A DNA stretch of 64,000 nt from Pseudomonas protegens (GTDB lineage Bacteria > Pseudomonadota > Gammaproteobacteria > Pseudomonadales > Pseudomonadaceae): NCBI RefSeq assembly GCF_013407925.2, contig NZ_CP060201.1:4015001-4079000 (forward strand), read 5' to 3'. Positions 41,910 to 57,907 of the stretch are shown here, piece after piece. Made by a program: the position numbers and the translations under genes. The notes under the pieces were generated by a model. It saw nothing but the letters and a program-made list of their open reading frames with translations, was not told where the DNA came from and did not search any database. Position 1 is the first letter of the stretch, and the number at the start of each line of letters is the position of its first letter.

Positions 41910-42962
41910 TCACAGCTGCACCCGGCGCAAGCGCCCGCTCAGGGCCACCACCTGCTGATCGGCAGTAGGAATCGGCCGACCGCTCAGGCCCATGCCTTCG
42001 CTCACCAGCACGGCATTGGCCACGCAGCACAGGTTCGAGGGCGTATCCAGGCCCTGGGCCAGTACCTGCACCGAGCGTTGCCCCAGATCGCAGCGCAGCA
42101 GGCGGCCGCTGAAGCGGGCGAAGCCGCCGTGCAGCACTTCGCCGGACCAGTCGGGCGGCAGGGGCTGCAACAGCCGGTCGCACAGTTCCAGCACCAGAAT
42201 CCGTCCTTGCGGATCCAGCGCCAGTCCGGTGGGCAGTTGCAGTCCGCGAATCAGCACCTCGATCCTGCCGCTGGCGGGCCAGACCCGAATCACCTGGCCG
42301 GCCTTGTCGGCGAAGTCGATGCCCTTGCGCGCCGGATCGCGATGCAGTTCACCGGAAAACAGGCTGATCAGTACCGCATCGGTCTGCGGTTCGTGGACCA
42401 GGGTCACGGGGACCGCTTCCTGGCCCTGATCCAGGTCGGGCAACTGGGCCAGCACTTGCTCGCCGTCCTCGGTGAACTCCACCAGCTGGTTGGTATCGGG
42501 CTTGACCGCCAACCAGCTTTGCCGCGAGGGGTGATAGCACAGTGAGTTGAGGTTGCCGCGGCTGTGAAACAGCGGCTCGGGCGGACGGTATTGCAGGTCC
42601 AGCAGCTTGGATCCGGCCACGTAGTCGGTCTGGCTGGCGAGGCAGAGCCCGCCGCCCAGGGCGATGTCCGACAGGCCCATGATTTCGTCGCGAAGCATGC
42701 GTGCCTGCATGTTCATCGAACGAAAACCCTGGGCCAGGACCTGCGGTGGCAGATAAGCGCCCGGCTGTTCCGGGTCCGGGCGCAGGCGACTGATGCGGCC
42801 ACTGAATGGCTGGTCCGGCAGGCCTGAGCCGGCTTCCGCCAGCAGCAGGCTGCCATCGACTTGCAGGCAGAGGCCGCGGGGGTTCAGCAAGCCTTCGGCG
42901 ACCACGTTGCTGGGGCGCAGGTTTTCCTGCGCCTGGCCGGGGATGAGCAATGCAATTGGCAT
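41910..42962 (-). CDS. ScyD/ScyE-type beta-propeller protein
   Basis: A 350-residue protein with repeated blades of the type NPRGLCLQVDGSLLLAEAG (about 30-50) and LPTGLALDPQGRILVLE (about 235-250), the pattern of NHL-like propellers. It resembles the ScyD/ScyE family named from the scytonemin cluster of cyanobacteria. The start at 42962 (MPIALLIPG) follows GAGGGAGA; no clear signal peptide is seen, unlike many family members. It is the last gene of the minus-strand operon, 32 bases after the second VioB-like gene. Its task is unknown; a scaffold or ligand-binding role is a guess. Confidence 0.75.
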   Translation of the reverse strand: MPIALLIPGQAQENLRPSNVVAEGLLNPRGLCLQVDGSLLLAEAGSGLPDQPFSGRISRLRPDPEQPGAYLPPQVLAQGFRSMNMQARMLRDEIMGLSDIALGGGLCLASQTDYVAGSKLLDLQYRPPEPLFHSRGNLNSLCYHPSRQSWLAVKPDTNQLVEFTEDGEQVLAQLPDLDQGQEAVPVTLVHEPQTDAVLISLFSGELHRDPARKGIDFADKAGQVIRVWPASGRIEVLIRGLQLPTGLALDPQGRILVLELCDRLLQPLPPDWSGEVLHGGFARFSGRLLRCDLGQRSVQVLAQGLDTPSNLCCVANAVLVSEGMGLSGRPIPTADQQVVALSGRLRRVQL

Positions 42963-42994
42963 GTGGATTCTCCCTCGCAATTAGAGCGACCCCA

Positions 42995-44854
42995 TCACTG
43001 CAGCGGCTGCCAGGGTTCATGGGTGAACCAGCATTTGAGCAGGGCTCTCTGGCTAGCGGACATCGAGCGCACCACGGGCATGTACAAGGTCGTGCCGAGG
43101 TATTCCCGGGAGGTGCGTGCCAGGATCATCTGGCGTGATCCCCAGACGGCGTCCTGCTGATTGAGTGCGATGTAGCGGGACATGGCGGGGAAGGCCAGGT
43201 AGTGAAAACGCAGCACGTTCTTGTACACCTGGTCCCAGGTGACGGTGCTGCCTGGCGCGATCCCGAAATCGGTGATGGCGTATTTGCGCAGGTTGATGAA
43301 AAAACCGTTGGATTTTCCGTGCTCGACTGCGCAGGTCGAGGTGACAAATCCAGCCTGTGCTGCCGAGCCGGGCTTGAGGCTGACCTTGAAGCTCACGCTG
43401 GATTGGCCGGCCTTGACTGTTTGTCTGGGCTCGAACTCCAGGAAGTCCCAGAACTGAGGATCTTTGTAAGGGGCATCCGGGCTGCCGTTTGAGGGGCCGG
43501 AGCTGATGGTGATCACGGTGTCTTCGGTGACGGGTTGTCCATGCTGGCTCAAGTTCAGGGTGATCTCGAGGCCCTCGGGGTAATCCTCCAGATACAAATT
43601 GCGTTGATCGGACGTCAGGCGATAGGTCTGTTCGATGGCGTTGATATTGATCGGTTTGGGCTCGGGGTCGGAGGGGTAGTAGCGCGTCTGCGGTGCCTTG
43701 ATGGCAATTGGCTCCTGATTGGCCAACTGGCGTTGTGTGGGCGTCAGCGGCAGGTCAAGGATGCCGCCATATACGTAGTAGTCCGACAGCGGAGTCTTGA
43801 GCGGATCCAGGGTCGTCAGTGTCGTCGAGCCAAGGTTGATCGAGACATCGCCGAAGTTCGCATTGGGGCCGATGGGCGAGGTGGTGTCGGTTCGAACGCT
43901 GCGAAACGCCTGCTTGGGAATGATATTGAGCATGTCGATGCTCAACAGATTGTTCTCGAGCACACTCGCGTAGCCTGCGCTACGTGACGATGGATTGATG
44001 AGCTGGCGCCCGCCGGTGACGATCAGTGGTTCCCCGGCAAAGGCCGGAGCCAGGGTGCCGACCACGCGGCCAATGCTTGGGTTGGAGGTGTACTGGTGGG
44101 CGGCGTAGTCGGCGTCCAGTTGCGCCGTGGTCATTTTCGGGCACATCTCGAACATGACGAAGCGCACGACGATGCCGGTCGCGCCGGGGGCCTCGATGAT
44201 CGAGCGCAGGAGCGGATTGTCCTTGTTGTAGCTGACGATCTGGTCGCGAGAGAAAGTGACCTGAAAACTGCCGCTGATACGGTTGGAACCCGGCGCATCC
44301 TGCTCCGGGTCGAGAATCCGGATGGCCACGTCATAACTGCTGCACACCGTATTGCCCTTGACCAGCAACTGCGGAGGCGTGCTGTTGCCGATCTGCAGGC
44401 CGCCGAGAAAAATCTGCGTGCTGATGGTGCCGGTGGGGTCCAGGTCGACCATCATCGGCCCGGTCACCGGTGGAGCGCCGGTGACCGGGTCCGCCGAGCC
44501 CAGCAGATAGAAAGGCTCGCCGACGAGGTCGCCCTGGGTGCTGATGTTGCCGGGCGTGCCCTGGGAGCTGATGGCAACGCTGTCCAGGGTGACGACATGC
44601 TGCCCGTAGTGGTTCCAGCCACCGGCGGTGTAGTAGGTGCCTGTCGGCGCATTGATCATTTCGGTCAGTTGCTCGTCGCTATAGACCTCGGCCTCGGGGT
44701 ACAGGGTCGAGGTGGTCAGGTCGAATAGAGAGAGTGTTGCTTCGCTGTCCGGATTTGTCGGATCGCTGGGAATGGTGGGCGAGTTGTTGGGCAGGCTGAC
44801 GTTGGTCTCGATCCCACCCCAGAAGTTCAGCCGCGGGCCGTTGAGAATACTCAT
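42995..44854 (-). CDS. VioB/RebD N-terminal-domain-like protein, copy 2
   Basis: A 619-residue protein beginning MSILNGPRLNFWGG, like the VioB start MSILDFPRIHFRG. Further matches in the same order as VioB (from memory) are GGWNHYG (78-84), VVRFVMFEM (229-237), VVGTLAP (264-270), GILDLPL (364-370), NLYLE (419-423) and a helical tail (541-612) with LAFPAM and MPVVRSMSASQRALL. In VioB/RebD this beta-rich region precedes a ferritin-like domain that couples two oxidised amino-acid imines; the protein here ends at that junction. No signal peptide is evident. It starts three bases after the second cytochrome-like gene. Function unknown; a pseudoenzyme, scaffold or new enzyme is possible. Confidence 0.75.
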   Translation of the reverse strand: MSILNGPRLNFWGGIETNVSLPNNSPTIPSDPTNPDSEATLSLFDLTTSTLYPEAEVYSDEQLTEMINAPTGTYYTAGGWNHYGQHVVTLDSVAISSQGTPGNISTQGDLVGEPFYLLGSADPVTGAPPVTGPMMVDLDPTGTISTQIFLGGLQIGNSTPPQLLVKGNTVCSSYDVAIRILDPEQDAPGSNRISGSFQVTFSRDQIVSYNKDNPLLRSIIEAPGATGIVVRFVMFEMCPKMTTAQLDADYAAHQYTSNPSIGRVVGTLAPAFAGEPLIVTGGRQLINPSSRSAGYASVLENNLLSIDMLNIIPKQAFRSVRTDTTSPIGPNANFGDVSINLGSTTLTTLDPLKTPLSDYYVYGGILDLPLTPTQRQLANQEPIAIKAPQTRYYPSDPEPKPININAIEQTYRLTSDQRNLYLEDYPEGLEITLNLSQHGQPVTEDTVITISSGPSNGSPDAPYKDPQFWDFLEFEPRQTVKAGQSSVSFKVSLKPGSAAQAGFVTSTCAVEHGKSNGFFINLRKYAITDFGIAPGSTVTWDQVYKNVLRFHYLAFPAMSRYIALNQQDAVWGSRQMILARTSREYLGTTLYMPVVRSMSASQRALLKCWFTHEPWQPLQ

Positions 44855-44857
44855 GAT

Positions 44858-46138
44858 TCACTCCTTGCCCTTGATGGATGGGCTGCTGGGGGATTGGGCG
44901 AACTTGAACAGGTAGGAAAAATCGGCCTTTTGCAGGCTGTTGATCGGCGTTGCCATGGAGTGGCAGTTGGTGCAGCTGCTGTTGGGCTGGATGTAGCTTT
45001 CCATGGTCACGTTGGCCGACAGTTCAGGGGTCGTCTGGCCCATGGGCGCGCCAGGGTTGGGCGTGGTACTCCATTGGGTGGTGATCAACTGGTAGTACTT
45101 GAATACGGATGCCTGAACCTGCGGCAGCGCCTGGTACTCGCTGTTGAGCTTGGTCGTGGCGTCGGTCAACGGGGTAAAACGGTCCAGTGGGTTGGGGGTG
45201 GTGAAACTCATCCCCGGCTTCGGCGTGCAGATCATGTGGCCATTGTGCAGGGTCCAGTTGCAGGGGCTCTGATTGACCTTATCGGCAGGCGCCTTGGCAT
45301 CGAAGTAGGAATACGCGATGCCTTTCTGCGGCTCATTGACCCACTGGTTTCCCTGCTTGACCTTGGGCGGCACATTGTCGACCTGCTCGAAGGTCGACCA
45401 GATCCACTGTGGAAACCCCTCGACCTTGTTGATGATGTGCAGCCCCACCAGGCCTAGCGTCGCTTGAGCCGTACCGTTGGCCACGCCTTGTGCATCGAAC
45501 GTGGTGATCTGGGCCTGCATGTGCAGGTAGCGGCTGGGGTCATCCTTGGCGGTGAGTATCCGCCAGCTGGATTTGATCTCGTTGGTCGCGTTGGGGAAGT
45601 TGATGTTGCTGGCCTTGGCCACGACATCGGCGTTGTAGAACTGGTTGTTGACGATGTAGTCGTAGGAGGCCTGGTTGGCGGCAATCTGGTAATAGGTCGG
45701 ATTGCCGTTCTGGTCGATCAGCCAACCGCCCACGGCCTGGTTGTCGTTGGCCGTTGCGGTGTTCTTGCGCCCGGCGATATTGATCAGCTTGAGGACCTTG
45801 GCCATAGGTGCCGAATTCCATGGACCGGGGTCCTGCCCTTGAGGCAGGAAGACCTCATTCACGCCCTTGTAGCTCTGCCACACGGTATCGCCAGGACTGC
45901 CCAGGGGTTTGCTGCAATCGGCGACTCCGCGTTGGCCGGTCTTGGCCGGCCAGTTCAGGTTGATGAACACCTGCCAGCTGTATTGATCGAAAGCCTGCTG
46001 CGATGCATTGGCGGCAGGTACCACGGCATTGGGTGGGCAAGAGGTCTGCTGCTGCGGCGCGCTGGGCTGCAGGGCGCAGGCTTGTTGGCTGCCCAGGCCA
46101 AGCAGCAGCAGGGTGGTGAAACGGCTCCAATGGTTCAT
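44858..46138 (-). CDS. Secreted cytochrome c-like protein, copy 2
   Basis: A 426-residue protein with a Sec signal (MNHWSRFTTLLLLGLGSQQACA, cleavage around 20-22; a lipoprotein site at Cys21 is imperfect) and one heme c motif CTNCH at 389-393. It is paralogous to the protein at 49601-50788: both share a W.VF..LN block, VW.S/TYK or FK, IK/LK.SW, LxGxHxINK followed by WxWxTFE, and the C-terminal CxxCHS. The start at 46138 follows AGGAG; the frame is open 73 codons further but that part is an unlikely Arg-rich sequence. It should be periplasmic. It is coupled to the VioB-like gene behind it. The large N-terminal part has no fold I can name. Confidence 0.8.
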   Translation of the reverse strand: MNHWSRFTTLLLLGLGSQQACALQPSAPQQQTSCPPNAVVPAANASQQAFDQYSWQVFINLNWPAKTGQRGVADCSKPLGSPGDTVWQSYKGVNEVFLPQGQDPGPWNSAPMAKVLKLINIAGRKNTATANDNQAVGGWLIDQNGNPTYYQIAANQASYDYIVNNQFYNADVVAKASNINFPNATNEIKSSWRILTAKDDPSRYLHMQAQITTFDAQGVANGTAQATLGLVGLHIINKVEGFPQWIWSTFEQVDNVPPKVKQGNQWVNEPQKGIAYSYFDAKAPADKVNQSPCNWTLHNGHMICTPKPGMSFTTPNPLDRFTPLTDATTKLNSEYQALPQVQASVFKYYQLITTQWSTTPNPGAPMGQTTPELSANVTMESYIQPNSSCTNCHSMATPINSLQKADFSYLFKFAQSPSSPSIKGKE

Positions 46139-46151
46139 GACGCGGCTCCTG

Positions 46152-47093
46152 TCACTGCGGGGTGGGCGAGAGTTGGTTCCACTGCGGCCGGGCACCGTTT
46201 TGCAACGAGGGCGGCGGGTTGAACAGCTGGCAGTCCGGTGGGTTGACCGGGCACATCTTCGCCACCTGGTCCCAGGTCTTGGCCGGGTCCGGCTTCTCGT
46301 TGCGCCAGTTGCGATAGTTCTGGCTGACGATCGGTGCGTTGGCGACGCTGACATCACCGGAGAAGTAGAACGACTGCGGATGCTGATAGGGCGCCAGGCC
46401 CGCCCCGTCGCTGGTGGCCTGCTTGTAGAAGGCGTAGCCGAACAGAATCGGGCTCGGCTTGACCGGAATCTCCAGGGCGTAGGCCTGCACGCTGGCGTCC
46501 AGATGCCGGCTGCGGGCGGCGCTGTAGGGCAGGTGCTTGATGAAGTCGCGGCGTGGCGGGTGGTTCATCGGCGAGAACATGCAGCAGGCCGGCATGTCCT
46601 TGGGCCGGTCCTCGGGGTAGGTGAGGAAGTAGGCCTTGTTGCCCAGGGAGACGAAGGAGCAGGTGTAGTTGTTGTTCTTGATCGGGAAGATCGGCAGGCA
46701 GTACTTCTCGTAGTGCTCCATCATCGCCCCGGAACCGTCGCCGTCGGCGGGCACGTAGTCATTGTCGTAGTAGCTGGTGCCCTGGGACACGGTGTAGTCG
46801 GCAGGCTTCAGGGTGCTGGGCGGGCTGCTGTAGGGCGGCGGGTTGTTCTTGTAGTGGGCGGTGACCCGGTACATGGTCCAGTCGCTGACCCAGGTCGCCG
46901 GGTAGAGCGGATCGGCCGGATCGCCCGGGTGACGCTTGGCGATGCAATTGTTGGTCTTGGCGTCGCAGCCCTTGTCGTTGTGCACGCCCATGTTGAAGTA
47001 GACGTTGTCGGGGTATTCCTGGGCCCAGGTTGCCTGGCTGGCGCACAGCAGGGTGGCGGCCAGCAGCAGGCGCTTGAGTGGATGGGTGTTCAT
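46152..47093 (-). CDS. Secreted Cys-rich protein of unknown function
   Basis: A 313-residue protein with a clear Sec signal peptide (MNTHPLKRLLLAATLLCASQATWAQ, cleavage after AWA-like TWA around 24). The mature part has several Cys, including a CC pair in the stretch MPACCMFSPMNHPPR, and many aromatic and Pro residues; no CxxCH motif is present. I do not recognise the family. It lies between the two cytochrome/VioB-like pairs, 13 bases before the second cytochrome gene, so it is part of the same operon and probably works in the periplasm with the two heme proteins. Confidence 0.75.
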   Translation of the reverse strand: MNTHPLKRLLLAATLLCASQATWAQEYPDNVYFNMGVHNDKGCDAKTNNCIAKRHPGDPADPLYPATWVSDWTMYRVTAHYKNNPPPYSSPPSTLKPADYTVSQGTSYYDNDYVPADGDGSGAMMEHYEKYCLPIFPIKNNNYTCSFVSLGNKAYFLTYPEDRPKDMPACCMFSPMNHPPRRDFIKHLPYSAARSRHLDASVQAYALEIPVKPSPILFGYAFYKQATSDGAGLAPYQHPQSFYFSGDVSVANAPIVSQNYRNWRNEKPDPAKTWDQVAKMCPVNPPDCQLFNPPPSLQNGARPQWNQLSPTPQ

Positions 47094-47159
47094 CTGACTC
47101 TCCTTTGCAAATCCGGGCGACTCGGGTCGCCCGGTGTTCCAGTGCCTGAGCGTTGCGGC

Positions 47160-49589
47160 TCAACCTGGCTGATAGTCGTTGAGGTCGAGCGGGGTCGGTG
47201 GGTAGCCGGTGCTCACCAGGTCCTTGGCCCAGATCTCCAGCACCTGGCGCCGGCTCTGGGGCAGGTCCCGGGTGATGGGCATGGCCAGGGTGCTGGCCTC
47301 CTGGTACTCCTTGCTGATCAGGGTGATGAACTGCTCGATCGCGCCCTCGATGCGTTGCAGGGAGTTGAGCGGCATGTACTTGTTCATGATCGGGTAGAGG
47401 TAATAGAAGGGCTGGAGGATCTGCGGAAAGATGAACTCCTTCCAGATCCGCACATTGGCGTCGTCGAACTGGTACACCCGGTTCCAGCAGTCGATGAAGT
47501 CCTTGAGCATCTGCGGCTCTTGCGGCAGCACCCGCAACGGCGAGAGGAAGTCGGTGAAGGCGTCGGTGTAGGAGAAGCTGAACGGAATGCCCGCCGGATC
47601 GTCCTGAATGAAAAAGCGCAGGGTGGGAAAGCCCGGCGCCACGGCCTGCACCGTCAATTGGGCAATGCCGTCGGCATTGGTCGTGATGCGGGTCAGGCTG
47701 TAGTTCACGGTGGCGCCCAGGCCGGCGTCATTGTCCAGTGTCCCGGTCATCGGTTGCGGGTTGTCGAATTTCAGGCAGGGCCTCAGATCGACAGCGGCCG
47801 GTGTTTTCAGGAACTCCTGATAGGTGATGGCGTTGCTGACCGGCTCATCGCACGCGCTGCTATCCCTGACCATCATGGCGCTCAGGCGCCTGCCGCTGCC
47901 CTCCCTGAGCAGGCTCGGATGCTGCGAGCCGTCGCTGAATTGGGGCATGCCCGGCTGGTTATTCGCTCGCGCATCGGGATAGTCGGTGATCAGCACGAAA
48001 TCCGCCGGATTGCTGAACGCCAGGTAGTAGTTGCTGGTGGTCAGCATGAAGGCGTTGTTGTACTCGGCGACCCACAAGGTGGTGCCGGCCGGTGCCGGTT
48101 GGCCGTTGTTCTGCACCATGATGTTCAGCGTCCGGCGGTCACCGACGTCGATGAAGCTGCCGCTCTCGATGACTTCTGCGGTCCACGTCTGCTGTTGGGC
48201 GGCGATGGTGTCGGTGCCCTTGAGCCGCAGCGCCAGGTTGCCTTTTTTCAGCAGGGCCTGGGCGCCGGCGTCCAGGGGCAGGTCCAACAGGCCAGAGCGC
48301 TTGTCGAAGGCCGATTGCTGATACTGGTCGAAGCCGATGCTGGTCAGGGGTTCGAAGTTGCTGCCCTGCTGCACCCCCAGCTCGTAGTCGCCGACATGGA
48401 ACTTGGCGGCGACCGGAATAGCGTTGTTGCGGCCATCCAGATCGGGAGCGGCCGGGCCGTCATGGACGGCCGGGTAGATCGGAAAGGTATTGCCCAGGTC
48501 CAGCGACAGCGTGCTGCCGTTGAGCTGGGCACTGAGCACGCCCAGGTTGACCCGCTGGTCTTTTTTGTGGATCACCGTATCGCCCGGAACCTTCTTGTAG
48601 AAGGGCACCGGATCCTTGGGCGCCAGGCGCTGGCCGCCCGGCGCGGTGGGGAACTCGTTGGCGAACCACAGGCCCAGGGTGCCAGCAGTGCGGCTGTAGG
48701 CCGGGTTGAAGAAGGTTTCGGTCGGGTTGTCCAGGCCCATTTGATAGAGCATCTGCAGCCTGGACATGTCCCAGGGCGCCTTGGAATGGCTGTTGACGTT
48801 CTTGAAGTCGTTGAACAGGCCGTTCTGGTCATAGACCGTCAGGTAAGTGGTGAACCTGATCATCAGGCCCTGGGCGTTCTGGCTGAGCATTTCATCCTGC
48901 AGGCTTTTCAGCAGCTTCGAGTCGCCGATGACCCATTCCAGCTGGTCCTTGGGAAAGCAGGTCTGCCAGGTGGCCGTGACGTAGACCAGGCCGCCAAAGG
49001 CGCCCCAGTTGAAGTCGAGAAAGCGGTTGAGCATGCGGTAGGTGTGTTTCAGGGTCAGGCCACAGGTGGCGTCGCCGAGCACCAGCTTGTCGAAGTACAG
49101 GGCGGTGAAGGTGTTCTGCCAGGGGCTGACATCGACAAAGCGTGCGGCGGTCGGACTCGGGTTGCCGAAGGAATTGCCCAGCAGTTGGTAGGACTTGTTG
49201 ATCAGCGGGTCGCTGTCGATGTAGCTGTCGACCTTGGATTCCCCGCCGATGATCACCGAGCGCAACTGCTGGTAGTTCACGGTGCCGCAGGCGTTGTCGC
49301 CGAACAGATCCCACTCGGCGGGAATCATCGGGTAGCTGTCGGGGTCGCCGTTGGTGGGGACCTGCAGCACGTAGTCCGGAACGTCCTTGTAGGCCAGCGG
49401 GGTGATGCCCCAGGGCATCAGGGTTTGCGGGGCATTCTTGTCATTGATCCCGTACTGGCTCAGGAAGCGCCAGTTCATCTTCATCTGCACCGCGTCGTAC
49501 AGCGGCAGCACATCGTTGTTGTTGAAGGTCGGCGGGTTCCAGAACATGAAACCGTTGAGGTAGATCCGGGGAAAGTTCAAGACGCTCAT
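47160..49589 (-). CDS. VioB/RebD N-terminal-domain-like protein, copy 1
   Basis: An 809-residue paralogue of the protein at 42995-44854. It starts MSVLNFPRIYLNGF and shows GTLGLW (303-308), LNGSTLSLDLG (356-366), GLLDLPL (433-439), and a helical tail (about 710-795) with YYLYPIMNKYMPL and MPITRDLPQSRRQVLEIW, which parallels VioB's YYELVYPFM and MPSTRELSMPKARLFLKYL. About 190 residues longer than copy 2, mainly in loops and an extra beta-rich part before the tail. It too stops before the place where VioB enters its ferritin-like catalytic domain. The start at 49589 follows AAGGAG; no signal peptide is evident. It follows the first cytochrome gene by 11 bases. Function unknown. Confidence 0.75.
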   Translation of the reverse strand: MSVLNFPRIYLNGFMFWNPPTFNNNDVLPLYDAVQMKMNWRFLSQYGINDKNAPQTLMPWGITPLAYKDVPDYVLQVPTNGDPDSYPMIPAEWDLFGDNACGTVNYQQLRSVIIGGESKVDSYIDSDPLINKSYQLLGNSFGNPSPTAARFVDVSPWQNTFTALYFDKLVLGDATCGLTLKHTYRMLNRFLDFNWGAFGGLVYVTATWQTCFPKDQLEWVIGDSKLLKSLQDEMLSQNAQGLMIRFTTYLTVYDQNGLFNDFKNVNSHSKAPWDMSRLQMLYQMGLDNPTETFFNPAYSRTAGTLGLWFANEFPTAPGGQRLAPKDPVPFYKKVPGDTVIHKKDQRVNLGVLSAQLNGSTLSLDLGNTFPIYPAVHDGPAAPDLDGRNNAIPVAAKFHVGDYELGVQQGSNFEPLTSIGFDQYQQSAFDKRSGLLDLPLDAGAQALLKKGNLALRLKGTDTIAAQQQTWTAEVIESGSFIDVGDRRTLNIMVQNNGQPAPAGTTLWVAEYNNAFMLTTSNYYLAFSNPADFVLITDYPDARANNQPGMPQFSDGSQHPSLLREGSGRRLSAMMVRDSSACDEPVSNAITYQEFLKTPAAVDLRPCLKFDNPQPMTGTLDNDAGLGATVNYSLTRITTNADGIAQLTVQAVAPGFPTLRFFIQDDPAGIPFSFSYTDAFTDFLSPLRVLPQEPQMLKDFIDCWNRVYQFDDANVRIWKEFIFPQILQPFYYLYPIMNKYMPLNSLQRIEGAIEQFITLISKEYQEASTLAMPITRDLPQSRRQVLEIWAKDLVSTGYPPTPLDLNDYQPG

Positions 49590-49600
49590 GGGGGCTCTCC

Positions 49601-50788
49601 TTAGCGTTTCCACTGGGCGCGTTTGAGCGACCAGACGTAGTCCAGTTTTTGATAACCGACGAAGTCTTTGTCCGGCAGCACGCTGGTGGGGTAGAGGATT
49701 CCGCCTGTGTGGTCGATGTTGAACGAGAAGAAGTTGTTCTTCTTCGTCGAATAGGCCGCGGTGCTATGGCAGGCCAGGCACGAAGAGCTGCCCTGAAAGG
49801 CCGATTCCAGCTGGGAGTTGGCCAGCAGCTTGGGTTCGGCACGGTGCTGGTCGTACTGCACACCGATCAGTTCGTACTGGGCCAGGTTCGAATACTGCTG
49901 CTGGAAGCTGCTGTTCACCGGCTTGGCGGCATCTGTGGGGCCGGTGATGTTGGTCATCGGCTTGGGTGGGGTGTCATTGGTGACGGTGTACTTGGGATTG
50001 TTGCGATTCTCGAAGGTGGTCCAGACCCAGTCCGGGGTCAGCTTGTTGATCACATGCATGCCGCTCAGGGCGGCGTAGCCCACCTGATACTGGCCGGTGC
50101 TGTCCACGTAGTAGGCCTGGGAGATGTAGTAGCCATCTTCGGCCAGCAGGGTCTTGAAGCCCGGGTCGGTGCCGATCCAGAACCACGACGTCTTCAGCTC
50201 CCAGGCGGTGGCCGGGAAATCCAGGTTGCTGGTCAGCTTGGCAAGGCCATCGCGGTTGTAGACCTTGTTGGCCACGATGTAGTTGAAGGTGTCCTTGCCC
50301 ATCATCAGGTGAAAACGCACCAGTTGTTCGTGCTTGGAAGGCGGGACCGGTGCGCCGCTGCGCATCTTCAAGGCCAGGCCATCGACCTGTTGCACGCCGT
50401 TCTGCGGGCTGCCGGCGGTGTCGTTGCCCAGGAACTGGAACAGCCCTTTAGGGTCCATGCCCTGCTTTTGCGCCAGCTCCGGCACCTCGCTCGGCAGATT
50501 CTCGCGCTCGGAGTAAGGCAGGGGCTCGGCCCCCTTCAACAGGTAGACCTGATCGGAAGGCTTGAAGGTCTCCCAGACCCGCAGGCCACCGTTGCTGGCG
50601 TCGGCCTGGTTGAGGCAGACGAACCAGTTCCAGGCCATGGTTTCCGGGCTCTGCTGGAAGGTGTTCAGGGTGCCGCTCTGATCACCGTTGAACGTGAGGA
50701 AGTTGCTGCAGTTGAAGGGGCTGGCGGTCTGGGCCTGAGCAAGGCCGCTCAACACACTCAGCACGACTATAGGGATGGTTCGCCGCAT
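49601..50788 (-). CDS. Secreted cytochrome c-like protein, copy 1
   Basis: A 395-residue protein with a Sec signal (MRRTIPIVVLSVLSGLAQA, cleavage about 19/20) and a single heme c motif CLACH at 337-341. Blocks shared with the paralogue at 44858-46138 include MAWNWFVCLN (51-60), VWETFK (71-76), LKTSWFW (198-204), LSGMHVINK with WVWTTFE (241-260) and YELIGVQY (305-312). It overlaps the end of eboF by 22 bases, which ties the novel half of the cluster to the ebo half. It is expected in the periplasm, where a c-type heme protein could carry electrons or perform an oxidation. Confidence 0.82.
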   Translation of the reverse strand: MRRTIPIVVLSVLSGLAQAQTASPFNCSNFLTFNGDQSGTLNTFQQSPETMAWNWFVCLNQADASNGGLRVWETFKPSDQVYLLKGAEPLPYSERENLPSEVPELAQKQGMDPKGLFQFLGNDTAGSPQNGVQQVDGLALKMRSGAPVPPSKHEQLVRFHLMMGKDTFNYIVANKVYNRDGLAKLTSNLDFPATAWELKTSWFWIGTDPGFKTLLAEDGYYISQAYYVDSTGQYQVGYAALSGMHVINKLTPDWVWTTFENRNNPKYTVTNDTPPKPMTNITGPTDAAKPVNSSFQQQYSNLAQYELIGVQYDQHRAEPKLLANSQLESAFQGSSSCLACHSTAAYSTKKNNFFSFNIDHTGGILYPTSVLPDKDFVGYQKLDYVWSLKRAQWKR

Positions 50789-52212
50789 GGAATCTCCTTG
50801 GCCTGAGCCGTATCGTCATTGGGGCGCCCTAGGAAATGCTCTAGGAGCAGGTGCTTTACCGCGGTGGCCGGCAGGTGCTCCGGCAGTGGTAAATCGCAGT
50901 CGGTGATCAGCAGGGGGCCGACCTCAGCGTTGCTCGGCAAGCGTCCGTGGCTGCCGCGGATCAGTGAGGTGTCCAGTGGAATCAGGTCCATGTAGTAGCG
51001 AAAGCCGAGCTTCTTCTGCAGCAGGCGGCGCGCTACCCGTAGTTTGGGAAAGCGGATCGCCGGGTCGATGAACAGCTCCAGCGGGTCGTAGCCCGGCTTG
51101 CGGTGGATGTCCACGGTGCGGGCGAAGTCCGGGGCCAGGCGATCGTCGAACCAGTAGTAGTAATCGAACCAGAAGCCCGCGGCGGCCACCGCCACCAGCT
51201 CGCCGCTGCGCGGGTGATCCAGTTGCCAGGCTCGTTGCTCGGCCTTGTCCAGCACCTGTTCGATGCCGGGCTGGCGCTGCAACAGCGCCTTGACCCGGGC
51301 GATGTCCTTGGGCTCGCGCACATAGACGTGGGCGATCTGATGGTCGGCCACGGCAAAGGCGGCGCTGGCGCCGGGGTCGAGCAACTCCCAGCTCAGGGAG
51401 CGGCGCACCTGCAGCAGGCCCTGCTCACGCAGCACGCGGTTGATGGAAACCGACTGCTGCACCGCCTCGATGCCGTATTCGGACACCAGCATCACTGCCG
51501 CGCCCTGCTGCCGGGCAAAATCCAGCAGGCGCCCGACTTCATGGTCGATGGCCCGCACTTCATCGCTGATGGACGGATGCTCGGGCCCCAGGCGCTGCAG
51601 GCTGTAGTCCAGGTGCGGCAGGTAGATCAGCTGCAGGTGCGGCCGGGTGATCTGGAACTCGGTGATGGCGCAGTCGACGATCCAGCGGCTGGAGGCAATC
51701 CCCGCCGCCGGGCCCCAGAAGCCCGGGAAGGGAAACTCGCCGATCTGCTGTTCAATGCGCTCGTGCAGCCCGGGCGGTGACGAATAGAGGCCGAAAATCT
51801 TGCGCCCGTCGGCCGGGTAATGCGGCCGTGGCGTGATGGCCGCGTCGACCTGGGCATGCATGTTGAACCACCAGAACAGCTGGCTGCAGCGCAGGTCGGG
51901 GATCTGCCGCCGCAGGCTCTGCCAGATCTTCTCGCCCTGAATCAGCCCATTGGGCTGCAGCCAGAAACGCACTTCGGCCTGATCGCGCCAGTACCAGCCG
52001 TTGCCGACGATGCCGTGTTCCGAGGGCGGCAATCCGGTGAGGATCGAGGCCTGCACCGTCGAGGTCACGGCCGGGAACACCGGTTGCAGTCTGGCCATCC
52101 GCGCCCGTTGCAGCAGGGCGTTGATGCGCGGGGTGGCCGGGCCCAGCAGGCTCGGCGTCAGGCCCACCACATTGATCAGCAGCAAGGGCTGGCGCAGGGT
52201 TTCAGAGGGCAT
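50767..52212 (-). CDS. eboF: EboF: alkaline phosphatase-superfamily (NPP-type) protein
   Basis: A 481-residue protein of the nucleotide pyrophosphatase/phosphodiesterase branch of the alkaline phosphatase superfamily. The N-terminal region LLLINVVGLTPSLLG, the likely nucleophile Thr in PAVTSTVQASILTGLPPSEHGIVGNG, and later LPHLDYSLQRLGPEHP and SEYGIE fit the fold; the usual first metal Asp after the opening strand is not obvious (Asn-Val here). It overlaps eboE by 11 bases. It completes the six-gene ebo set. Substrate unknown. Confidence 0.85.
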   Translation of the reverse strand: MPSETLRQPLLLINVVGLTPSLLGPATPRINALLQRARMARLQPVFPAVTSTVQASILTGLPPSEHGIVGNGWYWRDQAEVRFWLQPNGLIQGEKIWQSLRRQIPDLRCSQLFWWFNMHAQVDAAITPRPHYPADGRKIFGLYSSPPGLHERIEQQIGEFPFPGFWGPAAGIASSRWIVDCAITEFQITRPHLQLIYLPHLDYSLQRLGPEHPSISDEVRAIDHEVGRLLDFARQQGAAVMLVSEYGIEAVQQSVSINRVLREQGLLQVRRSLSWELLDPGASAAFAVADHQIAHVYVREPKDIARVKALLQRQPGIEQVLDKAEQRAWQLDHPRSGELVAVAAAGFWFDYYYWFDDRLAPDFARTVDIHRKPGYDPLELFIDPAIRFPKLRVARRLLQKKLGFRYYMDLIPLDTSLIRGSHGRLPSNAEVGPLLITDCDLPLPEHLPATAVKHLLLEHFLGRPNDDTAQAKEIPCGEPSL

Positions 52213-53440
52213 GGCTGGGGGCCTCCATGAGCGGTGCTTGCCCGTGCAGCAAGTGCCGTTGGCGCAGTTGTTCCTCGACCCATTGCAGTTCCGCGGCGAT
52301 GCCGTGCAGCAGGGCCTGTTCGGTGTCCGGGCGCAAGGCGCCGGGCAGCACGTTCCAGCTGTAGGTTTCGACCTCCAGCACCGGCTGGAACTGCGGGTGG
52401 GCGGCCAGAAAGTCGAAGGTGCGCATCAGTGCCTGCTGGCTGCCATGGAGCTCGGGCAGCAGGAACTGTTCGCTGAACAGGGGCACATGAAAGTGGATCC
52501 GCAGCTCGCGGCAGTGCCCCTGCTGCGGCTGCGCCGCTTGCAGCGCCTTGGGCAGGTCGGCCCAGGCCAGCAGTTGCCCCGCGCGGTCCCGGGCCTTGAC
52601 CTGATGCAGGTAGGTGCTCTCGACGAAGCGGCCCAGGGCCTGCAGCACCTGCTGGCGGCGTTGCGCGTCGGCCTCGGGCAAGTGGCAGATCAGCGCATTG
52701 GACAACTGGATCTTGCCCACCGGGATGCGTGCCTGCAGCAAGCGTTGCAGCGACTGATAGCAGTCTTCGAACACCACCGCCTGGTGGCAGACGTCGAAAC
52801 ACAGCGCCAGGTACTGATGGTGCGGGTCGCAGGTTTGCCAGCGTTGAAAGAAAGCGATGGCCTGGTCGGTGTTTTCCAGGACGCAGTCCGGCTCCATTTC
52901 CAGGCACAGGAGAATCTTCTTGCCGCTGCGTCGATGCAGGCTGGCCAGCTCGGCGGTCAACTGCAGCAGCTGAGCCTCGGCCTGTTGCTGCTGGGCGTCG
53001 TCCCAATGGGCGGCATAACCCAGGGGCACGCTGGAAATCACCCCCTGGGGACAGTCCAGGGGCAGGGCGGCAGCCAGCAGTTCTGCCAGTTGCAGGCTGT
53101 ACTCCAGGCGCTGCGGTTCGGCCCAGGTCGGCCGATAGACCTCGGCCTTGACCGCGCCCTGATGGAATTGGCCATAAGGAAAGCCGTTGAGGGAGGTCAG
53201 GCGCAGCCCGCAGTCGTGGAGCAAGCCGAGGAACGCCTCGCGCGCCGCCGGCTGTTGCAGTTCGCCGGCGGCCTGGGCGCTGATCCACAAGCCGCTGTCC
53301 TGCACCGCCAGCCCGCGCTGTCGGCGCACGCCCTGGAAGTGCTGCTGGATCGACGCCCCCAGGTCGGCCACGTTCCGGGCCGGGTGCACGTTGCTGCAGT
53401 AGCCGACCTGCGCGGCGCTCCAACCGGCCCGGGCGCTCAT
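52202..53440 (-). CDS. eboE: EboE: xylose-isomerase-like TIM-barrel protein
   Basis: A 412-residue protein of the sugar phosphate isomerase/epimerase (AP endonuclease 2) family. Candidate metal ligands are in CLEMEPD, CFDVCHQ, RIHFHVP and VLEVETY, spaced as in such barrels. The family N-terminus GYCSNVHPARN is clear. The ATG at 53440 overlaps the eboB stop (ATGA), so the frame further left is not used. Part of the ebo set; reaction unknown. Confidence 0.87.
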   Translation of the reverse strand: MSARAGWSAAQVGYCSNVHPARNVADLGASIQQHFQGVRRQRGLAVQDSGLWISAQAAGELQQPAAREAFLGLLHDCGLRLTSLNGFPYGQFHQGAVKAEVYRPTWAEPQRLEYSLQLAELLAAALPLDCPQGVISSVPLGYAAHWDDAQQQQAEAQLLQLTAELASLHRRSGKKILLCLEMEPDCVLENTDQAIAFFQRWQTCDPHHQYLALCFDVCHQAVVFEDCYQSLQRLLQARIPVGKIQLSNALICHLPEADAQRRQQVLQALGRFVESTYLHQVKARDRAGQLLAWADLPKALQAAQPQQGHCRELRIHFHVPLFSEQFLLPELHGSQQALMRTFDFLAAHPQFQPVLEVETYSWNVLPGALRPDTEQALLHGIAAELQWVEEQLRQRHLLHGQAPLMEAPSHAL

Positions 53441-54321
53441 TTGATCACCGGTTCCTGGCCGCGCAGGGCTGAGTTGTCCTGCCACTGGCGGCGCTGGTCG
53501 ATCGGCAGCGGGCTGCTCACCAGCTGTTTGTCCAGTTGCCCGCTCTGGGCGAAGAAATCCACCGGGTTGTGGAACAGCACCTGTTCCACCTGGGCCTCGC
53601 TGAAACCCGCGGCGAGCATGGCCTGGCCGGTCTTGGGCACCTTGAGCGGATCGCTGATGCCCCAGTCGGCGGCGCTGTTGACCACCATTTTCTCGGTGCC
53701 GTACTGCTGCAGCAGGGCCACCATGCGCTGCTCCGACATCTTGGTGTTGGGGTAGATCGAGTGCCCGCGCCAGCAGTCGCTGTCCAGCACCAGGGGCAGG
53801 GTCAGTTCATTGAGGTGATCGATGATCACCAGGTGCTCGGCGATGCCCACTTCGCGGATCACCGCCAGGGTGCGCTTGGTGCCGCCGATCTTGTCCCGGT
53901 GCGGGGTGTGCACCAGCACCGGCAGGTTGAACTGCTTGGCCAGTTCCAGTTGCGCGGCGAGAAAGCGGTCTTCCTCGGGGGTGATGTCGTCGTAGCCGAT
54001 CTCGCCGACGGCCACCACGCCGTCCTTGACCAGATAGCGCGGGAGAATCTCCAGCACCTCGTTGGCCACCGACAGGTCATTGGCTTCCTTGGGGTTCAGG
54101 CCGATGGTGCAGAAGTGGTGAATGCCGAACATGCTGGCGCGAAAGCGTTCCCAGCCCAGCAGGGTGTCGAAGTAATCAATGAAACTGCCGACGCTGGTGC
54201 GCGCCTGGCCTTGCCAGAAGGCCGGTTCGATCACTCCGGTGATGCCGGCGGCGGCCATGTTCTGATAGTCGTCGGTGGTGCGGCTGACCATATGAATGTG
54301 CGGGTCAAAGTACTTCGGCAT
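53437..54321 (-). CDS. eboB: EboB: TatD-like metal-dependent hydrolase
   Basis: A 294-residue amidohydrolase-type TIM barrel. The metal motif DPHIH is at 6-10, with GEIGYD, VLVHTPH and IIDHLNE supplying further likely ligands. The start at 54321 (MPKYFDPHIH) follows AGGGACT; the long upstream frame is not part of it. It lies 53 bases after eboA and is coupled to eboE. Substrate unknown. Confidence 0.88.
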   Translation of the reverse strand: MPKYFDPHIHMVSRTTDDYQNMAAAGITGVIEPAFWQGQARTSVGSFIDYFDTLLGWERFRASMFGIHHFCTIGLNPKEANDLSVANEVLEILPRYLVKDGVVAVGEIGYDDITPEEDRFLAAQLELAKQFNLPVLVHTPHRDKIGGTKRTLAVIREVGIAEHLVIIDHLNELTLPLVLDSDCWRGHSIYPNTKMSEQRMVALLQQYGTEKMVVNSAADWGISDPLKVPKTGQAMLAAGFSEAQVEQVLFHNPVDFFAQSGQLDKQLVSSPLPIDQRRQWQDNSALRGQEPVIK

Positions 54322-54374
54322 GGTGAGTCCCTGATGCAGTGGTGAAAAATCAGTGAGGGGCGGCCCGGGGGCGT

Positions 54375-55142
54375 TCAGGCGCCGGGCGGCAAGTGTTCGA
54401 GCCAGTGCGCAGGTAGACGGCGCTGCCGACACAGGCCGCGCAGGCGCTGGCACTGGGCCTGGCTCAGGAGTTCGAAGGCGATGGCGTGGGGCAGCGTGTC
54501 GCTGACGCTGCGCAACGCGGCCAATTGCTCTTCCATGTGTTCCAGGGCCAGCTGGTTGAGGTCGACGCTACGACGCTCGGCCAGGCCGACGATGCGCCCG
54601 GTGTCCAGGCCCATGCCCAGGGTCTTGAGCAGCAACTGGTGGAAGGCCCGGTCGGGGTAGTGGCGCGCGGGGAAGGGGTTGTCCAGGGCCAGGGCGGCGA
54701 ACACTTCGCGGTTGTTGGTGCGTCCGGCCTGCAGCGCCAGGTCGAGACTGCGGCCCTCGCTGTCCAGGTCATCCAGGACCTTGAGCAGCACGCTCTTCTC
54801 CTGGTCGTCACCCCAGAGAAACAGCTGGCGCAGCAGGGCCAACTGATCGCTGCCGGCCTGCTGTTCCAGCAACTGCGCCAGAAGCAGGGCCCGGGCCAGC
54901 TGAGTGCGGTCGTTGCCCGGGCCGGTGAGCGGCGCCGGCTGGCCAAGCCGCCGTTTGCACTGGCTGCTGAGCAGCACCAGGGTATTGGCCGAGGGCTGCC
55001 GGGCCAGTTGTTCCTGGGCCTCGTGCCACCAGTGCCGGCTCGGGTCGTCGAGCTGCTGTTCAAGTTGCCGGCGGCGTTCGGCAAAGGCTGCATGGCGCAG
55101 GGCGAGCGCAGGCGAGAGCGGGGAAATGACGTCCGTGGTCAT
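54375..55142 (-). CDS. eboA: EboA family protein
   Basis: A 255-residue, mostly helical, Leu-rich protein without recognisable catalytic motifs. Position and length fit EboA, the least understood member of the set. The ATG at 55142 overlaps the eboC stop (ATGA). The frame is open far upstream inside eboC, but that part is a shadow. Landmarks are LFLWGDDQEKSVLLKVLDDL and NREVFAALALDNPFPARHY. Confidence 0.8.
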   Translation of the reverse strand: MTTDVISPLSPALALRHAAFAERRRQLEQQLDDPSRHWWHEAQEQLARQPSANTLVLLSSQCKRRLGQPAPLTGPGNDRTQLARALLLAQLLEQQAGSDQLALLRQLFLWGDDQEKSVLLKVLDDLDSEGRSLDLALQAGRTNNREVFAALALDNPFPARHYPDRAFHQLLLKTLGMGLDTGRIVGLAERRSVDLNQLALEHMEEQLAALRSVSDTLPHAIAFELLSQAQCQRLRGLCRQRRLPAHWLEHLPPGA

Positions 55143-56023
55143 GTCGGCTTGATCCAGCGTTGAAGGTGGGGAAGCAGGAAGAACACCAGTACGCACAACA
55201 GGCTGCCCAGCGGCTGATTGGCCAGGGCCAGCACCAGGGCGTCGAACAGCGGCAGGGCCGCCAGGCCGGCGCCGATGAAGGCGCGGATCTGCCGCTGCCG
55301 TGGGTTGGCCAGGTGGCGCCGGTAGTGCCAGCCCAGCCAGCCCAGCCACAGCAGCAGGACCAACCAGAACACGCCGTTGTTGGCGTAGCAGGCCAGCACC
55401 AGCGGGCTGAGCATCAGTACCAGCGGCAGGCGGCTGAGCAACTGGTTGCGGTGCTCCAGCCGGGCCAGGTAGGTCAGGCCGGCGATGTAGGTGCCCAGCA
55501 AGGCGGCGCACAGCCACAGCGGTTGCGGTGGCAGCGCCAGGCAGGCGGCGGCAGTCAGGTACAGGGCCGAGCGACAGCCGCCCATCAGCCAGACGCTGTG
55601 GGGATAGTTCTTGTGCAGCAGGTTGTAGGCGAGGATGAACAGCAGCAGCAATCCGGCGCTGGCCAGCAGCCAATGGGGTTGGGCGATCAGGTGGCTCAGG
55701 CCCAGCACCGACAGAGCGGCCACCAGCAGCAGGGCGGCGGTGGCCAGGCTGACCTGGGTGCGACTGACCAGGCCGAGAACGATCGGTCGCGGGTTCTGAT
55801 GCCGCAGGTCCCAGTCGGCATCCAGCAGATCGTTGAGCAGCATGCCCGCCAGGTACAGCGCCGAGAGCGCCACCAGCAGCAGGGTCCAGACCAGCGGCGA
55901 AGGCGGCGCCTGGGTGGTGGCGCTGCTGGCCAGCAGGGCGGCGGCCAGGGCGTTGGTCCATACCGTCGGCAGGTTGGAGACTCGGCCCAGGGTCAGCCAG
56001 GTGGTCAATGCGGACTGGCTCAT
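55139..56023 (-). CDS. eboC: EboC: UbiA-type prenyltransferase-family membrane protein
   Basis: A 294-residue inner-membrane protein with about eight or nine membrane segments. The first aspartate-rich motif NDLLDADWD is at 64-72, the place where UbiA enzymes bind prenyl diphosphate through magnesium. The start GRVSNLPTVWTNALAA is typical. It overlaps eboD by four bases (ATGA) and eboA by four. It may attach an isoprenoid to an aromatic acceptor or make a lipid carrier; this is inference from the family. Confidence 0.88.
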   Translation of the reverse strand: MSQSALTTWLTLGRVSNLPTVWTNALAAALLASSATTQAPPSPLVWTLLLVALSALYLAGMLLNDLLDADWDLRHQNPRPIVLGLVSRTQVSLATAALLLVAALSVLGLSHLIAQPHWLLASAGLLLLFILAYNLLHKNYPHSVWLMGGCRSALYLTAAACLALPPQPLWLCAALLGTYIAGLTYLARLEHRNQLLSRLPLVLMLSPLVLACYANNGVFWLVLLLWLGWLGWHYRRHLANPRQRQIRAFIGAGLAALPLFDALVLALANQPLGSLLCVLVFFLLPHLQRWIKPT

Positions 56024-57903
56024 CGGGCGCAGTCCTTGCTCCAGGCGCAGTCCGGGCCGCCGACACTGGCCAGGCGCAACAGGACCTGTTCCATCAGTGG
56101 CATGTCGATGTGGTGCACATCGATGGACTGGCCGATGCGGTTGAGCATCGGGATCGACAGCTGGCCGCCCAGATGTTGGCGGAATTCTTCCAGGCCGATC
56201 AGCACCAGGGAGCGGCCCTGGGCGTCCTTCAAGCCCAGTTCCGGCGGACTCAGGTTGAAGCCGAGCTGCTCCAGCAGTTGCAGCAGGCGCTGGGTTTCAG
56301 CGTCGCTCAGCAGGCCGCTGGCATTGGCATAGAGCGCGTCCAGGGCCATGCCCACGGCCACTGCCTCGCCATGGCGCAGACGATGCCGGCTGAGGTTCTC
56401 CAGCTTGTGCGCGGCCCAGTGTCCGTAGTCCAGGGGCCGGCCATTGCCCCGCTCGAAGGGATCGCCGGCGCCGGTGATGTGCCCCAGGTGCAGTTCGGCG
56501 CAGCGGCGGATGGCGTAGCGGCTGGCGCTGTGTTCGAAGGTGGCCAGGGCCTGGGCTTGCTGCTCCATCCATTGGAAGAACGCGGCGTCCTTGATCAGCG
56601 CCACCTTCACCGCTTCGGCCAGCCCGGCGATCTGGTCCCGGGGCGACAGGGTGAGCAGCCACTGGAAGTCGTTGATCACCGCCGTGGCCGGATAGAAGGC
56701 CCCCAGCAGGTTTTTCTGGGCAAAGGCGTTGATGCCGTTCTTCACCCCGATGCCGGCATCGTTCTGCGCCAGCACCGTGGTCGGGATGCGGATCAGGCGC
56801 ATGCCGCGATGGAAGGTGGCGCAGGCGTAGCCCACGGCGTCCAGCAGCGCGCCGCCGCCCAGGGCCAGCACATAGCAGTGGCGGTCCAGACGGTGTTCGA
56901 GCATATGTGCGTACAACTGCTGCAAGACCTCGGGGGTCTTGCTCAGCTCACCTGCCGGCACCGGGATCGGCGCGGCCTGCAGGTGCAGGTCGGCGGCATG
57001 GGCGGTGAAGTAGGCGTCGATCTGCTGCGGCAGTTGCGGGGAGCACAGCAGCAGTTGTGCATCGACGAATGCCAGCACTGTGGTGCGCCCCGCCTGGGGC
57101 TTGGCCAGTTGCTGGTGCAGGCAGGGGTTGTCGGGCCGGAACACGTGATCGGTGAACAGCACCGGGTAGTGGTAGCTCACCTCGAAGCGGCCTTCCAGGG
57201 CCTGGGCCTGATCGCTCCGTGCTGGGGCCAGGCGTGGCTTGAGCAGGCTGCGGGCGCCGAGGAACACCCCCGGCAGGACCATGCTGGCGAGAATCGTCGC
57301 CAGCATGGCGTTCTGTTCCACCAGCAGGCTGCCGATGGCCGCGTAGGCCAGGGCCAGTCCGGCATTGGCCAGGGTGGTGACCAGCAGGAACTGGCGCAGT
57401 GGATAGCGCTGCATGCCGGCGGCCAGCACCGAGGTTTCCGCCAGGACCGGCACGCCACGCAGGCACACCAGCGACAGGGTGCTGAGGCGATAGGCCAGTT
57501 GTCCGGGTTGCCAGCTTCTCAGGCCCAGCCAGGTGGACAGCAGGCGAAAGTAGCCGGCCCCCAGCCAGTAGCCCAGGGCGGCCCCCAGGCACAGACCGAT
57601 GAAGATCACCAGGTAGCCGCCAATGGCGCCCAGGGCCGCCACGGCCAGCAGCGCGACCAGGCTCGAAGGCACCGGCAACAGCACATCCAGCGCCAGCAGG
57701 GTGATCAGCAGCAGGGCCAGGCTGGTGCGTTGCACGGGATCGGTCGGGAGCAAAGCGCCGAGGTGATTCAGCAGTTGCTGGATCTGCTGTTCGAACAGCA
57801 GGAAGCTGGCGACCACCAGGGTCGAAAACAGCAATAGGGAAAGCCAGTAGTTTTCCGCCGTACCCTTCAGTGAGAAAGCACGAGGCAATAAGCTGCGCTT
57901 CAT
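56020..57903 (-). CDS. eboD: EboD: fusion of a DedA/VTT-like membrane domain with a dehydroquinate synthase-like enzyme
   Basis: A 627-residue two-part protein. Residues about 20-225 contain several membrane segments with a DedA/SNARE-associated (VTT) look (VPSSLVALLAVAALGAIGGY, PVLAETSVLAAGMQRYP). Residues about 240-615 are 3-dehydroquinate synthase-like: GGG at 349-351 with Asp355, PTTVLAQNDAGIGVKNGIN, and likely metal ligands Glu430, His495 and His511, the two His spaced 16 residues apart as in the enzyme. It is probably a sugar-phosphate cyclase rather than the housekeeping AroB. The ATG at 57903 follows GAGGGA; this site also matches an RsmA/E motif. First gene of the operon. Confidence 0.87.
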   Translation of the reverse strand: MKRSLLPRAFSLKGTAENYWLSLLLFSTLVVASFLLFEQQIQQLLNHLGALLPTDPVQRTSLALLLITLLALDVLLPVPSSLVALLAVAALGAIGGYLVIFIGLCLGAALGYWLGAGYFRLLSTWLGLRSWQPGQLAYRLSTLSLVCLRGVPVLAETSVLAAGMQRYPLRQFLLVTTLANAGLALAYAAIGSLLVEQNAMLATILASMVLPGVFLGARSLLKPRLAPARSDQAQALEGRFEVSYHYPVLFTDHVFRPDNPCLHQQLAKPQAGRTTVLAFVDAQLLLCSPQLPQQIDAYFTAHAADLHLQAAPIPVPAGELSKTPEVLQQLYAHMLEHRLDRHCYVLALGGGALLDAVGYACATFHRGMRLIRIPTTVLAQNDAGIGVKNGINAFAQKNLLGAFYPATAVINDFQWLLTLSPRDQIAGLAEAVKVALIKDAAFFQWMEQQAQALATFEHSASRYAIRRCAELHLGHITGAGDPFERGNGRPLDYGHWAAHKLENLSRHRLRHGEAVAVGMALDALYANASGLLSDAETQRLLQLLEQLGFNLSPPELGLKDAQGRSLVLIGLEEFRQHLGGQLSIPMLNRIGQSIDVHHIDMPLMEQVLLRLASVGGPDCAWSKDCAR

Positions 57904-57907
57904 CAAG

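Follow-up and report, generated by a model that had tools for sequence, protein, structure and literature searches.

The 64,000-nucleotide stretch of Pseudomonas protegens DNA analyzed here (contig NZ_CP060201.1, positions 4,015,001 to 4,079,000; hereafter the window) belongs to a 6.8 Mb genome in a single contig and carries an operon in which a gene for an apparently exported mono-heme cytochrome is twice followed by a gene for a VioB-like protein (VLP), giving the pairs cyt1-VLP1 and cyt2-VLP2. The two pairs are homologous, each is kept together in the Pseudomonas genomes that carry it, and cyt2 and VLP2 have been exchanged between close species as a single block, which is the most direct evidence that a cytochrome and its VLP are matched partners. 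The operon as a whole is a complete ebo cluster of the already published EDB/ebo type, and it is proposed, with somewhat less than even confidence, that it serves to make and export an indolic metabolite derived from tryptophan, with each cytochrome-VLP pair serving as one oxidative module.

Homologous gene pairs and block exchange in Pseudomonas

The first pair consists of cyt1 (49601..50788) and VLP1 (47160..49589), separated by 11 bp, and the second of cyt2 (44858..46138) and VLP2 (42995..44854), separated by 3 bp, all on the minus strand. Between the pairs and on the same strand lies orph (46152..47093), encoding an exported protein of no known family, 66 bp from VLP1 and 13 bp from cyt2. 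The original prediction had placed these five genes correctly and had read them as a cytochrome gene followed by a VioB-like gene, twice in one operon; both the arrangement and the homology of the pairs are borne out by BLASTP and profile comparison. The cytochromes match each other with 80 bits (E 8e-21) in BLASTP and at 99.75% (E 2.3e-27) in profile-profile comparison, and the VLPs with 48 bits (E 8e-10) and at 99.0% (E 3.6e-18), respectively.

The genus survey covered 199 same-genus genomes, which are related, such that the counts do not represent independent events. VLP1 is present in 25 of these, together with cyt1 in every case (25/25), and EboE scores above its cut-off in the identical 25 of 199 genomes. 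The order of the six ebo genes, cyt1, VLP1 and scyE is the same in all 24 fetched relatives; orph, cyt2 and VLP2 form one block in the same place in 17 of the 24, and the whole block is missing there in 7. In 6 of the 7 blockless genomes, the VLP2 profile finds only cross-matches to the VLP1 end. The seventh (G169; L055, 7-5183) carries orph-cyt2-VLP2 away from its main operon, at a contig end and behind a second eboC. Matches to the cyt2 profile occur in 58 of the 199 genomes, 19 of them with at least 779 bits and the next, at 195.5 bits, belonging to another branch of the family, and pair 2 is complete in 19/19 genomes with a strong cyt2 match. A hetero-complex that requires both pairs, offered earlier as a reason for the retention of the two, is unlikely and was rejected, because pair 1 occurs by itself in 6 of the 25 genomes; in addition, the stretch fetched from a metagenome-assembled genome (MAG) of Marinobacterium (L085) has an ebo cluster with a single pair.

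Compared with the nearest fetched relative (G061, L031), the operon proteins of the window are 90-99% identical, but cyt2 and VLP2 share only 69% and 57% identity, whereas identity to P. piscis (L105) is 92% for both cyt2 and VLP2 and 80% for cyt1, 73% for VLP1 and 82% for orph. DNA identity, followed in 200-base steps, crosses over within the start of cyt2 (~46000) and early in scyE (~42700), and these approximate ends delimit a block of cyt2 and VLP2 (42700..46050, minus strand) that differs as a single allele between close species. The gene orph goes with the remainder of the operon and not with the swapped block. Among named loci, the cyt1 and VLP1 of the window are nearest to P. protegens in the trees. 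A full Pseudomonas-type operon is also present in a record labeled Pantoea sp. Cy-639 (L087), in which the organism name is probably wrong.

The trees of cytochromes and VLPs comprise 27 rows each, and their deeper order is unsafe; long branches call for caution. Both contain a pair-2-type clade of Pseudomonadaceae, Shewanella (forward pair), Nitrospirillum, Marinobacterium and the genome G1120, with support of 96/99 for the cytochromes and 100/99 for the VLPs, and in both pair 1 forms a long branch restricted to the Pseudomonadaceae, pair 2 being the widespread form. Of the suggestion that the cytochrome-VLP unit had been duplicated, the homology of the pairs is borne out; a simple tandem duplication within the operon was set aside, as the trees do not support it. 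Nor is orph the lone orphan it was taken for, since Shewanella, too, keeps it with pair 2, and it stands beside a VLP gene in the genome G565. Conservation of its product is high (mean column identity of 85% across 12 rows, in which eight cysteines are invariant), and the gene accompanies pair 2 while lying outside the swapped block.

Predicted cytochrome fold, VioB-like partners and export signals

Signal peptides were judged by a plain, author-set hydropathy cut-off and not by SignalP, on author-selected alignments of 68 cytochrome rows (A9) and 52 VLP rows (A8). A signal-peptide-like N-terminus is present in 65 of the 68 cytochromes, 11 of the 12 orph proteins and none of the 52 VLPs. The description of the cytochromes as secreted agrees with the family as a whole; the cyt2 of the window is among the three members under the cut-off (1.71 vs 1.9), although by eye its start is signal-like and a signal peptide is likely.

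The CxxCH motif (C337xxC340H341 in cyt1) is invariant in all 68 cytochromes, as are K189, W192, H234, C389, C392 and H393 of cyt2. The predicted cytochrome fold has its best structural matches among cytochromes P460 and c'-beta, and cyt2 is predicted to contain a P460/c'-beta-like core. Sequence profiles do not confirm this kinship: PF16694 (cytochrome P460) matches none of the 68 members at E<=0.01, four families match at that threshold with one member each and weakly, and sequence searches of the PDB with alignments A2, A4 and A9 returned no matches at E<=10. The K189-x-x-W192 motif, found in 68/68 members and present in cyt1 as Lys-x-x-Trp in FPATAWELKTSW, has the same spacing as K78-x-x-W81 of P460, the position of the heme-crosslinking lysine. 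By prediction, the lysine is placed where it could crosslink the heme, the distal side would be open, and the invariant H234 seems, by eye and from spacing, to occupy the place of the distal carboxylate of P460. The family is large, with 2107 of 8000 scored database proteins matching at E<=1e-3, and no Pfam family covers more than one of the 68 members. One of the 12 genomes searched contained a P460 protein, and the background open reading frames (ORFs; n = 1077) are six-frame translations, many of which are not genes. None of cyt1, VLP1, orph, cyt2 and VLP2 has a Pfam match at E<=1.

P460/c'-beta proteins of such a fold are ligand-binding or catalytic (PMC11928373). The predicted kinship to c'-beta, which binds nitric oxide (NO), and to P460, which oxidizes hydroxylamine, would also suit a protective function, with the cytochromes binding or detoxifying NO, hydroxylamine or peroxide and taking no part in biosynthesis. 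Such a function is quite improbable, as the linkage to VLP and ebo genes within the genus and the exchange of cyt2 in one block with VLP2 fit a pathway-specific role better.

Both VLPs match approximately the first 160 positions of VioB (TIGR04492 1-162 and 1-159, E 5e-4), at 17.8 and 17.9 bits against an equivalog cut-off of 1250, and a TIGR04492 match at E<=0.01 is present in 41 of the 52 VLPs. The earlier identification as VioB-like applies to this N-terminal half and does not extend to the rest of VioB, including its ferritin-like domain: PF12902 has no match in VLP1, VLP2 or anywhere in the genome of the window, and the alignment contains no conserved metal or cofactor ligand. On these two grounds, the VLPs are ruled out as a working VioB. 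A full-length relative (L069) has PF12902 at 593-807 behind its VLP-like half, and the VLP-like L068 matches TIGR04492 positions 485-591; a protein search with L068 found three relatives, including L068 itself. The VLP2 model, with a predicted local distance difference test (pLDDT) score of 90, consists of a beta-rich part, an immunoglobulin (Ig)-like domain at 409-525 and a helical C-terminus. Fold searches returned only Ig-like, adhesin and similar matches and no cofactor fold, the first 400 residues having no clear match and being barely tested. The pairing is firmer than the sequence alone could have told, and both proteins of the pair are more unusual than the description "cytochrome + VioB-like" conveys.

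Partners beyond Pseudomonas and the proposed oxidative module

A scan of named genomes with the broad cytochrome profile A7 was evaluated for the best 80 of at least 500 confirmed relatives, more than half of them of Pseudomonas type. In 45 of these 80 best loci a VLP gene follows the cytochrome gene (44 by script, and L116 by hand because its genes are fragmented), with gaps of -38 to 65 bp when the broken L116 is excluded. In 19 others, between L122 and L152, the cytochrome gene is followed directly by genes for a GMC oxidoreductase and/or a FAD-SLDH-like small subunit, and 16 have no recognized partner, some ending soon after the cytochrome. The pair is also found in Azomonas (L082), and the phyla with pairs include Verrucomicrobiota, Bacteroidota and Gemmatimonadota. 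Three Shewanella loci (L075-L077) have two pairs each together with ebo, scyE and orph, the second pair lying on the other strand with the VLP before the cytochrome. Nitrospirillum (L078) has a pair and a further VLP without a recognized cytochrome, and the Marinobacterium MAG has, within the fetched stretch, ebo, one pair and scyE and no orph. In Wenyingzhuangia (L119, 8342-9403), a flavin amine oxidase gene (PF01593) is located 500 bases upstream of the cytochrome-VLP pair; VioA and RebO are members of the flavin amine oxidase superfamily.

The GMC-type loci bear on the possibility that the cytochrome is an electron acceptor and not a catalyst, with the VLP as the oxidizing enzyme in the place of the GMC dehydrogenase. 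The 19 loci agree with this, and PF12318 (FAD-SLDH) scores above its cut-off in 2 of the 5 small subunits scanned from them. A class-level match in L066 (286-5130), a distant family cytochrome (43 bits), likewise adjoins a LodA/LodB-like pair, representing an amino-acid oxidase of the type whose cofactor is protein-derived. The VLPs, however, have no conserved cofactor ligand, and the matches of the pLDDT-90 model include no cofactor fold, its first 400 residues being barely tested. They are also signal-less, and those GMC proteins whose start is clear begin ~6-10 residues before the Rossmann motif, apparently without a signal, which leaves unexplained how electrons would pass directly to a cytochrome that is exported. 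Together with the ligand-binding or catalytic nature of proteins of the P460/c'-beta fold (PMC11928373), these points make an acceptor role rather unlikely.

Alternatively, the cytochrome and VLP may form one complex outside the cytoplasm, the VLP being co-exported by an unusual route. The close spacing of the genes, both in the window and elsewhere, and the block exchange are consistent with a complex, and GMC-type units also have a partner lacking a clear signal: their small subunits start acidic and not signal-like, five of them passing the hydropathy cut-off (1.95-2.05). Against co-export, all 52 VLPs are without a signal-like N-terminus, and VioB and related proteins function in the cytosol; such a complex is improbable.

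Under the preferred proposal of an oxidative module in an indole pathway, for which we infer the substrate, the reaction and the order of steps, the VLP, resembling the N-terminal half of VioB and predicted to be cytosolic, would bind or hold a reactive intermediate of the indole-pyruvate or imine type. The Ebo proteins would carry this intermediate across the inner membrane, and the partner cytochrome, as a large P460-type mono-heme protein, would oxidize it in the periplasm, the second of the two predicted compartments. Pair 1 would be the core module, and orph with pair 2, observed to be present or absent as a block, would be an optional second module for further modification of the product. 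Because the ScyE-like protein of the operon is without a signal-like N-terminus, a periplasmic oxidation step would be left for the cytochromes. The link of the cytochrome-VLP genes to ebo in Pseudomonas and the block exchange make these the genes most likely to shape the product. Aerobic E. coli matures c-type cytochromes poorly; if heme loading fails there, the EDB indoles seen in that host may be incomplete products.

Several observations weigh against this proposal. The substrate is a matter of inference, the profile scores against P460/c'-beta are insignificant, the GMC-type branch fits an electron-acceptor role, and a signal-less partner beside an exported cytochrome, in the VLP and GMC types alike, is without a full explanation. 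Some pairs occur without the ebo set in the stretch seen, namely in G1120 (L072), a Verrucomicrobiales MAG (L117), Wenyingzhuangia (L119) and a Gemmatimonadota MAG (L121). Two Shewanella loci (L113 and L115) have EboD, EboA, orph and cyt2 and no recognized VLP; the G565 locus (L074) has orph-VLP without a recognized cytochrome, the cytochromes of this genome lying on other contigs; and the VLP-like genes of L068 and L069 are without a cytochrome, on contigs of 3.9 and 6.5 kb. Class- and phylum-wide draws are sparse, with matches to cyt2 in 8/369 genomes, to VLP2 in 4/369 and to the VLP profile A6 in 3/398, and to A6 in 3/244 in the order. Both profiles occur together in 1 of the 369 class genomes, which is that of the window, and no recognized VLP neighbor lies beside the other fetched cyt2-profile matches in class genomes. 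The conserved co-occurrence anticipated by the original prediction, which had named separation of the paired genes as evidence against a unit, is seen within the genus and again in other phyla, but outside the genus the genes also occur apart, the cytochrome often with GMC genes and the VLP without a recognized cytochrome in L068, L069 and L074.

A more specific and more doubtful proposal is that of a previously undescribed two-gene oxidation system, in which an exported, oversized P460-type enzyme, with its heme crosslinked to a lysine and a histidine on the distal side, would be dedicated to one VioB-half partner and receive an organic substrate from it. If true, this system would be shared among several phyla and employed twice in the making of a nematode repellent, and would be, to our knowledge, the first case of a P460-type heme in natural-product biosynthesis instead of nitrogen metabolism. 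The wider questions are what cargo ebo clusters handle and how the EDB repellent is finished. Should the cytochromes be P460-type, this heme chemistry of nitrogen metabolism would have an unrecognized large branch, with VLPs and GMC dehydrogenases as partners.

The operon and known systems

The operon comprises twelve genes that all point the same way on the minus strand between 57906 and 41910, with no gap or overlap exceeding 66 bases, in the order EboD, EboC, EboA, EboB, EboE, EboF, cyt1, VLP1, orph, cyt2, VLP2 and ScyE-like, the contiguous homologs of EboA to EboF constituting an ebo cluster of EDB type. The EboD homolog (56020..57906) is 3-dehydroquinate-synthase-like (PF01761, PF24621) and is fused at its N-terminus to a membrane domain of the VTT/DedA type (PF09335; 41.9 bits, cut-off 33.9). 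DedA proteins include undecaprenyl-phosphate flippases, and with this fusion a lipid-carrier role of Ebo would fit; free VTT-domain genes adjoin VLP genes in L068 and L121. Downstream are an EboC-like UbiA prenyltransferase (55139..56023; NF035940 76.7 bits, under the cut-off of 250), an EboA-domain protein (54375..55142; NF035938 131 bits, cut-off 50) and an EboB-like TatD-family protein (53437..54324), whose matches fall under curated cut-offs and which is named by family and place. EboE (52202..53485) is identified by an equivalog (NF035939, 417.7 bits vs cut-off 250). The EboF-like protein of the phosphodiesterase/phosphatase superfamily (50767..52212; PhnA 50.3 bits and PafA 18.6 bits, both under cut-off) owes its name to operon position only, related loci having a gene in the same place. 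The last gene encodes the ScyE-like NHL/strictosidine-synthase-like protein (41910..42980), which falls below its family cut-off (NF033206, 60.4 vs 80 bits); among ScyE-like ORFs of up to 420 aa, 0/36 have a signal-like N-terminus by the hydropathy cut-off.

The claim that no described system is built in this way does not hold for the operon, since the EDB/ebo type is in print, and holds in that the pair itself was found nowhere described. No literature linking ebo or EDB with these cytochromes or VioB-like genes was found, a weak result given that subscription papers were mostly outside reach. The closest system is the EDB cluster of P. fluorescens NZI7 (Burlinson 2013; Zhou, Vergis and Mahmud 2022), known here through PMC6282210, PMC5736907 and PMC9655573. 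It shares with the window a Pseudomonas host and a full ebo cluster, to which are added further genes, some with signal peptides, and insertions in its eboA, eboD or eboE homologs render the strain edible to C. elegans (PMC6282210). When placed in E. coli, EDB converts tryptophan to indoles, and two of these are moderately repellent to worms (PMC9655573, on Zhou 2022). These accounts, as far as accessible, assign the cytochrome and VioB-like genes no role. The scytonemin operon of Nostoc punctiforme also combines ebo genes with a ScyE-family gene, and in that system export precedes final oxidation (PMC6282210). It differs in that Nostoc ScyE has a signal peptide, unlike the ScyE-like protein of the window, and the words "cytochrome" and "VioB" are absent from the main text of PMC6282210.

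Among individual proteins, the heme-containing imine dimer synthases VioB, RebD and StaD resemble the VLPs in their N-terminal half only, the VLPs being without the ferritin-like domain and scoring far below the cut-off. Cytochromes P460 and c'-beta, a superfamily with a large beta-sheet heme c fold and the best structural matches of the predicted fold, share a CxxCH near the C-terminus and, by spacing, a K-x-x-W at what would be the crosslink position; the cytochromes of the window, however, are ~2.5 times longer, have no PF16694 match, appear to carry a histidine in place of the distal carboxylate, and belong to a family paired with VLP or GMC genes. Finally, three-subunit FAD-GMC dehydrogenases of the FAD-SLDH type are similar in that the small subunit and/or GMC gene comes after a cytochrome from one branch of this family, whereas the operon of the window, with no flavoprotein partner, has a VLP in that place.

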